Positions 5,039-20,284 of a stretch of 64,000 nt of DNA are shown here, one piece after another. The stretch is taken from positions 3,658,001 to 3,722,000 of the forward strand of contig NC_133942.1 of NCBI RefSeq assembly GCF_031877795.1, written 5' to 3'. The notes below the pieces were generated by a model that ran no database searches, was not told where the DNA came from, and saw only the letters and a program-made list of their open reading frames with translations. Numbering within the stretch: position 1 is the first letter of the stretch; every line of letters starts with the position of its first letter. Source of the DNA: Strix aluco (Eukaryota > Chordata > Aves > Strigiformes > Strigidae). The position numbers were made by a program, and so were the translations under genes.

Positions 5039-5216
5039 CTATATTCTACTACGCCGGGCACGGGTATGAGCATTTGGGGAGGAACTACATGGTCCCTGTT
5101 GATGCTCCACAACCCTACGCCCCTGAGAACTGCATCAGCGTGCAGAGGATCCTCCAGAAGATGCAGCAGCAGCAGACAGCCCTGAACCTCATCCTGCTGG
5201 ACACCTGCAGGAAATG
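5039..5216 (+). CDS. Paracaspase exon A: catalytic His and Cys
   Basis: The acceptor is a pyrimidine-rich tract ending in CCCAG at 5038. The donor is GTAGGA from 5217. The first two bases complete a split codon and the last two (TG) join the next exon's G to give Trp. The exon encodes the second half of the p20-like subunit. It contains the [10 protein letters not shown] motif with the catalytic His codon at 5059-5061, the MVPVDAP segment typical of MALT1 proteins, and LILLDTCRK with the catalytic Cys codon at 5206-5208. Length and motif spacing match MALT1. The preceding exon, which should carry the first protease strands, was not found in 1-5038. Confidence 0.93.
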
Positions 5217-20200: not shown

Positions 20201-20284
20201 GAGCCAGAGGAGAACGACGAGAGCGACCTGAGCGAGCTCTGCTCGGCACTGCTCCGGGCTGGCCCAGGGCAGGACCACCCCTGA
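5039..20284 (+). CDS. MALT1-like paracaspase (PCASP2/PCASP3-class paralog), 3' half, seven spliced exons
   Basis: This is the C-terminal 383 residues of a paracaspase. MALT1-family enzymes are cysteine proteases that cleave after Arg, bind BCL10/CARD scaffolds through N-terminal domains, and drive NF-kB signalling in the cytosol. All seven exons have AG/GT borders and compatible phases, and together they read open to a TGA at 20282. The order is caspase-like domain (YYAGHGYE with His; LLDTC with Cys), GYAT strand, helix region, linker with a conserved Trp, Ig3-like domain, then a Ser/acidic tail. The catalytic His (5059-5061) and Cys (5206-5208) are present. So are the acidic residues matching MALT1 D462 (5200-5202) and E500 (9593-9595), which shape the Arg-binding pocket. 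Divergence from MALT1 is too great for it to be MALT1, so I infer one of the extra vertebrate paracaspases absent from mammals; I cannot tell which. The N-terminal death, Ig1 and Ig2 regions and the first half of the protease lie upstream of the window. Confidence 0.92.
5217..8890 (+). other. Paracaspase intron between exons A and B
   Basis: 3.7 kb of sequence with no recognised exon or repeat. A 219-codon open frame at 7375-8034 has no family resemblance and no splice support, so I treat it as chance. The short introns 8966-9570, 9699-9946 and 10079-10200 likewise hold nothing recognisable. Confidence 0.6.
8891..8965 (+). CDS. Paracaspase exon B: post-catalytic loop and GYAT strand
   Basis: The acceptor is CTTCTTCCAG (ending 8890) and the donor is GTAAGT from 8966. 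The exon encodes the loop after the catalytic cysteine and the VYGYAT strand at the start of the p10-like part. From the third residue after the Cys to the Thr of GYAT there are 26 residues, the same as in MALT1, although the loop sequence itself is largely different. The last two bases (AC) pair with the first base of the next exon to give Thr. Confidence 0.88.
9571..9698 (+). CDS. Paracaspase exon C: p10-like segment with S1 acidic residue
   Basis: The acceptor is CTCTTGCAG (ending 9570) and the donor is GTAAGG from 9699. It encodes the [10 protein letters not shown] segment, the [11 protein letters not shown] helix and a further helical stretch. The Glu in AYE (9593-9595) aligns with MALT1 E500, one of the acidic S1-pocket residues that explain arginine preference. 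This is the best conserved stretch outside exon A. Confidence 0.92.
9947..10078 (+). CDS. Paracaspase exon D: end of protease domain and linker
   Basis: The acceptor is CTCTCCCGCAG (ending 9946) and the donor is GTGAGC from 10079. It encodes the [12 protein letters not shown] and SLTDPI motifs that close the MALT1-type protease domain, then a linker to the Ig3-like domain. A Trp codon at 10063-10065 lies where MALT1 has W580, the residue at the allosteric protease-Ig3 interface. The linker is otherwise poorly conserved. Confidence 0.9.
10201..10352 (+). CDS. Paracaspase exon E: first half of Ig3-like domain
   Basis: The acceptor is TCTCCCTTCCAG (ending 10200) and the donor is GTGAGT from 10353; the exon ends in phase 0. 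It encodes [20 protein letters not shown] and a following strand, matching the start of the MALT1 Ig3 domain (a cysteine-containing strand, then a Phe-Ser-Asn turn). GC content is high, including a run of eight C at about 10303-10310. Confidence 0.88.
11357..11400. repeat. (CATC)11 microsatellite
   Basis: Eleven uninterrupted CATC units inside the paracaspase intron. It is likely length-polymorphic. Confidence 0.95.
12230..12410 (+). mobile_element. Old CR1/L3-like LINE relic
   Basis: The segment around TTAGATTGTGGAAGTCGTTG, GGCACAGGAGGTTATTGAGG and the following AATTTAGCA resembles the 3' region of ancient amniote CR1/L3 elements on the + strand. It is short and diverged. Confidence 0.5.
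12600..14404 (+). mobile_element. CR1 LINE, 5'-truncated, degenerate reverse transcriptase
   Basis: A sense-strand CR1 ORF2 remnant. Hallmark pieces appear in order across different frames: [13 protein letters not shown] near 13,060, a VIYLD-type catalytic-region relic near 13,440, a VLGPVL-type strand near 13,630, MSQQCAC near 13,950, [10 protein letters not shown] near 14,040 and [11 protein letters not shown] near 14,130. Frameshifts and stops break the frame throughout, so it cannot encode an active enzyme. The usual CR1 3' tail is not seen; sequence changes character after about 14,404. Confidence 0.85.
14405..14990 (+). mobile_element. Second, older LINE relic abutting the CR1
   Basis: Starting at about 14,450 the + strand reads FTNDLSDVP and then a [13 protein letters not shown] stretch, the degenerate footprint of an RT fingers/palm segment with its ADDT-like motif eroded. 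A [12 protein letters not shown] stretch follows near 14,570. It is a separate, more diverged copy than the element before it. Confidence 0.45.
15319..15475 (+). mobile_element. Internal CR1 fragment, near-duplicate of 13826-13982
   Basis: A 157-base block matches 13826-13982 with five mismatches counted by eye. It covers only the RT interior and lacks the CR1 3' end, so it is better explained by local duplication than by a separate retrotransposition. Confidence 0.85.
18095..18220 (+). CDS. Paracaspase exon F: second half of Ig3-like domain
   Basis: The acceptor is TTCCTGACACAG (ending 18094) and the donor is GTAGAG from 18221. The exon is 42 codons in phase 0 at both ends. The segment [20 protein letters not shown] matches the MALT1 strand pair around its LSSLQKLKEHLVFTVCL stretch in spacing and pattern. 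Compared with MALT1, roughly 25-30 residues before it are missing. The gene may be shorter here, or a small phase-0 exon may hide in the preceding 7.7-kb intron. Confidence 0.85.
18935..19260 (-). mobile_element. Old CR1/L3-like LINE relic, antisense
   Basis: Blocks such as TTCTGAACCCTTCCCAAGTG and GGATCCCTGTGGAGCTCTGC resemble the reversed 3' half of ancient amniote L3/CR1 elements. Divergence is high, so the limits are approximate. Confidence 0.4.
19371..19560 (-). mobile_element. CR1 LINE 3' end, antisense
   Basis: It begins GTCACAGAGTCGTCTAGGTT, continues with the block ending CAGTCCAACCATTAAC, then GGGATGGGGACTCCACCACC and CTGGGCAGCCCATTCCAAC. This is the standard order of a reversed CR1 3' terminus. 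Confidence 0.85.
19922..20284 (+). CDS. Paracaspase terminal exon: last Ig3 strands and C-terminal tail
   Basis: The acceptor is TTTCCCCTTCCAG (ending 19921). The reading frame is open to TGA at 20282-20284. The first part ([10 protein letters not shown], then QRTC) completes the Ig3-like domain. The remaining 90 or so residues are low-complexity, Ser- and Gln-rich, ending in a Glu/Asp-rich stretch and a Leu-rich patch (LSELCSALL). At 20204-20221 the residues PEENDE fit the TRAF6-binding pattern P-x-E-x-x-acidic/aromatic. MALT1 also carries TRAF6 sites in its C-terminal region. Confidence 0.9.
   Translation, partial: TDVVLQLDLHYTRLSTKQRTCESLQTTLQKSLLGQFFSQRNYSQPDYQRTPACAVSMCLQDASALSTGPKGQASLRTGSGHSLPSSNPSNFSSEPEENDESDLSELCSALLRAGPGQDHP

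Follow-up and report, generated by a model that had tools for sequence, protein, structure and literature searches.

PCASP3 of Strix aluco lacks a detectable death domain and carries a conserved tail motif that resembles a TRAF6 docking site

The names PCASP2 and PCASP3, which denote two relatives of the paracaspase MALT1, were reportedly introduced by Hulpiau in 2016. Quesada 2010 describes chicken and zebra finch as having three paracaspases and mammals as having lost two of them. According to the available parts of Staal 2018, type 1 paracaspases consist of an N-terminal death domain, Ig domains, and a paracaspase domain, and this domain structure is conserved. The same source treats genes of lamprey, lancelet, and tunicate as PCASP3 orthologs and reports that zebrafish PCASP3, which served as the positive control with conserved activity, induced NF-kB when joined to an HLH domain that makes it dimerise. 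Staal 2018 also raises the question of paracaspase activation without CARD-BCL10. For MALT1, the available part of Ginster 2017 reports that TRAF6 can activate the protein outside the CBM and that self-cleavage at R149 strips off the death domain, leaving a fragment that signals strongly and requires the C-terminus and K644.

We examined a 64-kb stretch of the Strix aluco genome (C12:3658001-3722000; hereafter the window, to whose first letter the plain positions below refer), which carries the 3' three-fifths of a PCASP3 gene. Seven exons on the plus strand, joined from 5039 to 20284, yield 383 residues in a single open frame that closes with a stop codon (20282-20284). The first (5039..5216, YYAGHGYE...LLDTCRKW) contains the codons of the catalytic His (5059), an S1 Asp (5200), and the catalytic Cys (5206), and the third (9571..9698) contains the codon of an S1 Glu (9593); these correspond to H415, D462, C464, and E500 of MALT1. 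The second exon (8891..8965) matches a Strix uralensis protein, P0001. The fourth (9947..10078) encodes the end of the caspase domain and the linker, with equivalents of MALT1 E549 at 9988 and W580 at 10063. The domain search and the match to P0001 place the beginning of the MALT1_Ig (Ig3) domain on the fifth exon (10201..10352) and its middle on the sixth (18095..18220). The last exon (19922..20284) encodes the end of Ig3, a tail predicted to be disordered, and the stop, as judged from the joined frame and the predicted structure; within it, positions 20204..20221 encode PEENDE, a conserved C-terminal motif. All seven acceptors are AG, all six donors are GT, and the phases are compatible. An earlier sequence-only reading had proposed a gene with exactly this start and end, with open frames, good splice sites, the catalytic His and Cys, and both S1 acids visible in the window, and the joined model, which has no internal stop, bears out each of these points.

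The remainder of the gene lies upstream of the window. A search of the owl genome matched further PCASP3 exons at C12:3650544-3657494, of which the one at C12:3657255-3657494, ∼0.5 kb before the window, encodes the third S1 acid (D365 in MALT1), so that the full S1 set is present in owl PCASP3. The start codon, at C12:3650274, is inside a CpG island and is preceded by an in-frame stop 37 codons away; from start to stop, the gene spans about 28 kb. Residues 1 to 269 of P0001 had no credible match within the 64-kb window, their exons being at about C12:3650274-3657494, and candidate upstream exons sought inside the window with human MALT1 or P0001 were likewise rejected as not credible. Rfam gave no match within the window.

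The Strix uralensis protein P0001 (653 residues, annotated as MALT1-like isoform X1) is 99% identical to the window gene, and the 383 residues encoded in the window differ from its residues 271 to 653 at 2 positions. When the joined protein was compared with PDB sequences, 10 of 10 hits were MALT1 (best E value, 1.2e-59), and the catalytic exon alone matched PDB MALT1 with an E value of 1.1e-21. Identity to human MALT1 was 36% (131 of 367 aligned positions). A source labelled lgn contributed two contigs, 3,367 and 3,520 bases long, with frames of 576 and 632 residues; the first frame is 99.6% identical to a Gallus gallus protein (across 472 residues) and the second 99.8% identical to a Coturnix protein. 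Because the owl exons in the window are spread over 15 kb, contigs this short are best explained as spliced transcripts, and the joined frame that they carry suggests that PCASP3 is transcribed in chicken and quail; they could also represent a processed copy. The owl PCASP3 gene is intact and has been conserved over vertebrate time.

To place the gene, we used 252 distinct proteins, drawn from 120 of 391 matches listed, all 60 of a further set (of limited length), and 120 of 890 listed, the last set containing some repeats. By best BLAST match, 231 of the 252 proteins among the matches listed were classed as PCASP3, 15 as MALT1, and 6 as PCASP2. A tree was built from 41 rows: the window protein, human MALT1, and 39 proteins chosen from the 252. 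In this tree, the window protein fell within a 24-row PCASP3 clade, which was split from MALT1 and PCASP2 at 100/100 and which comprised birds, a crocodile, a turtle, amphibians, coelacanth, ray-finned fishes, and sharks; its gar and medaka members bear the name MALT paracaspase 3. The three paralogs occupy separate places in the owl genome, with MALT1 on contig C41 (and a like copy on C40), PCASP2 on C29, and PCASP3 on C12. The intron positions of MALT1 and PCASP3 roughly correspond, as judged from the edges of tblastn matches in the owl genome. We conclude that the window gene is PCASP3, a jawed-vertebrate paralog of MALT1; PCASP2, an initial guess from the ZNF592 neighborhood, was ruled out by the tree. 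The sequence-only reading had taken the gene for a MALT1 paralog rather than MALT1 itself and for one of several extra MALT1-like genes lost in mammals. Both claims hold, as the gene lies outside the MALT1 clade in a phylogeny that includes all three paralogs, MALT1 and PCASP2 are found at other loci of the same genome, and two such paralogs have been reported as missing from mammals (Quesada 2010 and Staal 2018, in their available parts). PCASP3 is kept in birds, turtles, crocodiles, amphibians, and fishes and lost in mammals. The finding of the gene is correct but known, because the three paracaspases of birds, and the loss of two of them in mammals, were already published in 2010; the owl gene belongs to a described family and has an annotated counterpart in Strix uralensis. 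Two side observations concern the distribution of the family. No squamate PCASP3 occurred among the matches listed, in which Gekko and Sceloporus were present as MALT1 only, and PCASP3 may have been lost in lizards and snakes. In the tree, a protein labelled Lampetra planeri (P0251) grouped among the PCASP3 proteins of teleosts, a position that points to a contaminated record.

Downstream of PCASP3 and on the same strand, the window contains a large ZNF592 coding exon (45621..47966, plus strand; Pfam zf-C2H2_ZNF592, E value of 1.3e-20) that begins 25 kb after the PCASP3 stop and has a frame open to a stop, the coordinates being those of the frame. The frame is 61% identical to ZNF592 and 38% identical to ZNF532. 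A CpG island at 41001..42500 (no strand assigned) precedes this frame and is likely the ZNF592 promoter. On the same strand as owl MALT1, 40 kb past its last matched exon, is a ZNF frame with 38 to 44% identity, taken to be ZNF532; the human neighborhood is also MALT1-ZNF532. This parallel ZNF synteny fits an origin of PCASP1 and PCASP3, together with their neighbors, in the early vertebrate genome duplications. Such an origin differs from the view in the available parts of Staal 2018, where lamprey, lancelet, and tunicate genes are PCASP3 orthologs. A third ZNF592/532 relative, perhaps ZNF687, was found at C30:541796-544018. Linkage of PCASP2 to this gene, of the kind seen for the other two pairs, was considered and not observed, the two being on different contigs (C29 and C30). 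MALT1 and its ZNF532-like neighbor occur twice with equal scores (C40:224282-285685 and C41:96769724-96831123), near the start of one contig and near the end of the other, in opposite orientation; duplication in the assembly or a pseudoautosomal region of the sex chromosomes could account for this. A SEC11A sequence had no match in the window or at the MALT1, PCASP2, or PCASP3 loci. Elsewhere in the window, a reverse transcriptase frame at 57466-58230 (RVT_1, E value of 6.7e-13) is probably a CR1 LINE fragment; a stretch near 12.7 to 14.2 kb resembles this frame, and one 59-residue piece of it had no Pfam match. Tandem repeats were found at 32546-33325 and 59813-60034 (units of 52 bases each) and at 28664-29240 (unit of 146 bases).

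Key residues of MALT1 are conserved in PCASP3. Among the matches listed, we considered 185 long PCASP3 models (at least 560 residues), and all 185 kept the equivalents of H415, D462, C464, and E500. The D365 equivalent was present in 166 of these models, with the remaining 19 gapped; the E549 equivalent was present in 180 (5 gaps) and that of W580 in 177 (5 gaps and 3 other letters). The domain plan of owl PCASP3 is Ig1-Ig2-caspase-Ig3-tail, with Ig1 and Ig2 intact. A structure predicted from 59 sequences begins with Ig1 and has a mean pLDDT of 71.5 (moderate confidence); its best 34 PDB matches were the MALT1 caspase-Ig3 unit or caspase domain, and the 35th was MALT1 Ig1-Ig2. It is important to note that several active-site loops of this model (residues 279-283, 328-331, 334-339, and 357-365) have pLDDT values below 50, so the model does not verify the active-site geometry. 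Given the conserved residues, a working Arg-directed protease with a role in NF-kB signaling is plausible in the owl. As a separate observation, a sequence of the LxxR/A type in Ig1 (P0001 residues 24 to 28) resembles the R149 self-cleavage site of MALT1 and occurs in 148 of the 185 long PCASP3 models among the matches listed, despite there being no death domain to remove.

A death domain was not found in owl PCASP3 or in any of the 185 long PCASP3 models among the matches listed. In 155 of these models, no more than 25 residues precede Ig1; across all 185, the number of residues that align to positions 30 to 123 of human MALT1 has a median of 2 and a maximum of 52. Because Pfam misses the death domain even in human MALT1, we relied on blastp and on tblastn with positive controls. 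When the 252 proteins listed, many of them fragments, were searched by blastp with the death domains of human MALT1 and of bird PCASP2, only the PCASP2 proteins P0178 and P0179 matched at E values of ≤1. In tblastn against the owl genome, the human query recovered both death-domain exons of MALT1 (6e-23 and 4e-13), and the PCASP2 query recovered both of PCASP2 (3e-30 and 1e-20); the exons of the opposite paralog were detected with either query as well (6e-14 and 2e-5; 4e-13 and 9e-5). No death-domain match better than 0.29 was seen in the 104 kb searched around PCASP3, of which 32.5 kb precede the Ig1 exon. With the full human MALT1 query, whose beginning is rich in Pro and Ala, weak matches appeared upstream of PCASP3 (best E value, 0.005). 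A fast-diverged death-domain exon could have escaped tblastn. The N-terminal death domain given for type 1 paracaspases was thus not found in owl PCASP3, which is in the type 1 family by descent and not by full architecture.

The second distinctive feature of PCASP3 is its tail. PEENDE occurs in 182 of the 231 PCASP3 proteins among the matches listed, from sharks to birds. Of the 49 without it, 47 stop aligning at least 55 residues before the motif site and 2 have variants, PGENDE in Oncorhynchus and PEEDDE in Arapaima; the motif is therefore retained in 182 of the 184 listed proteins that reach the site. In a 59-row alignment picked for species spread and complete tails, from which the Oncorhynchus and Arapaima variants were excluded, P628-E633 were the sole invariant columns beyond residue 465; the mean frequency of the top residue across the other columns of the tail, which is predicted to be disordered, was 0.37. 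PEENDE matches the TRAF6 consensus PxExx(F/Y/D/E) given in the literature and looks like a TRAF6 docking site. Since PxExx[DE] is short and acidic, the invariance of PEENDE could also serve another partner or a kinase. The end of the owl MALT1 tail is PVETTD, and owl PCASP2 has PEENLS, outside the TRAF6 consensus, at a similar place. In the available parts of Staal 2018, the C-terminal site of MALT1 is PCASP1-specific and an Ig3 site, TPEETG, is common to all three paralogs. Among the matches listed, fragments included, we found exact TPEETG in none of the 231 PCASP3 proteins, none of the 6 PCASP2 proteins, and 11 of the 15 MALT1 proteins, a discrepancy that perhaps comes from a looser alignment in that study. 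The available parts of Staal 2018 mention neither the absent death domain nor PEENDE, and a literature search that paired PEENDE with TRAF6 found no publication.

In its domains, residues, and tail motif, the owl gene showed no difference from jawed-vertebrate PCASP3 and is a member of that group. It shares with MALT1 the Ig1-Ig2-caspase-Ig3 plan, the catalytic dyad, the S1 acids, the E549 and W580 equivalents, and roughly matching exon breaks, but it is only 36% identical and is without a detected death domain, PVETTD, TPEETG, the R781 region, and K644. Among the 185 long PCASP3 models from the matches listed, the R781 region is gapped in 184, and the position of K644 is most often A (84) or F (54), with K outside the six commonest letters. 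PCASP2 is of the same family and is present in the owl and other birds; in contrast to PCASP3, owl PCASP2 keeps its death domain, and its tail does not fit the TRAF6 consensus.

The best reading of these features, which rests on sequence comparison, is that PCASP3 is a BCL10-independent, TRAF6-docked paracaspase. Because it has no detectable death domain, PCASP3 should not enter CARD-BCL10-MALT1 filaments by the usual contact. TRAF6 would instead recruit and cluster the protein through the C-terminal PEENDE, without BCL10, and PCASP3 would dimerise via its caspase-Ig3 unit; the dimerised protein would then scaffold NF-kB signaling and cleave MALT1-type substrates such as CYLD. This proposal follows from the fact that PCASP3 is built like the R149-cleaved MALT1 fragment, and PCASP3 may be the genome-encoded counterpart of that death-domain-free fragment, p76. 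In the available part of Ginster 2017, p76 likewise has no death domain, an intact caspase-Ig3 unit, and a C-terminal TRAF6-type motif; it differs in arising by proteolytic cleavage and in depending on K644 for full signaling, whereas PCASP3 is encoded without the death domain and does not keep K644, a point that speaks against the proposal. On balance, we lean toward the whole explanation, a TRAF6-assembled, death-domain-free Arg-type protease and scaffold that corresponds to p76, in which TRAF6 binding, independence from BCL10, and expression and activity in the owl are the parts that we infer.

PCASP3 might instead be just another redundant scaffold and protease of the MALT1 type, still drawn into BCL10 complexes by its Ig domains, with PEENDE minor or unrelated. 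The Ig1 and Ig2 domains of PCASP3 are intact, and, in the available parts of Staal 2018, MALT1-like scaffold and protease activities are traced to the ancestor that all three paralogs share and BCL10 binds the Ig domains of MALT1 as well, so loss of the death domain does not exclude contact with BCL10. However, the assays available from Staal 2018 used HLH-fused, force-dimerised proteins; because forced dimerisation bypasses recruitment, the zebrafish result supports latent activity and recruitment is outside its reach. The failure to find a death domain in the PCASP3 clade and the invariance of PEENDE, which equals that of the active site in the 59-row alignment, also argue against this alternative, which we consider rather unlikely. 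It is improbable that bird PCASP3 is a relative with a regulatory or dominant-negative role, vying with MALT1 for TRAF6 and having little protease action: a TRAF6-like tail kept where the death domain is undetectable would suit such a role, but the catalytic dyad is present in 185 of 185 long models among the matches listed, as are the equivalents of D462 and E500, and a protease-dead decoy would have no need of these residues. The considerable change (0.38 changes per column between the window protein and turtle) might have pointed to a MALT1 copy that has diverged or to a pseudogene in decay. We give this almost no credence, as it is already contradicted by the open frames throughout the window, the 2 differences in 383 residues from Strix uralensis, the separate loci of MALT1 and PCASP2, and the 100/100 support for the PCASP3 clade.

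Returning to the TRAF6-docked reading, we tentatively suggest from these comparisons that PCASP3 left the CARD-BCL10 system, had lost its death domain by the time jawed vertebrates radiated, and came to be switched on by TRAF6 through PEENDE, which would make it a BCL10-independent branch in non-mammalian vertebrates. The interest of the owl gene lies in the missing death domain together with the conserved TRAF6-like tail, rather than in its existence. PCASP3 is a natural vertebrate case of a paracaspase without the BCL10-docking domain, in which a candidate TRAF6 site varies no more than the active site does. This architecture makes activation free of CARD-BCL10 testable, and the answer would bear on the TRAF6-driven mode of human MALT1.
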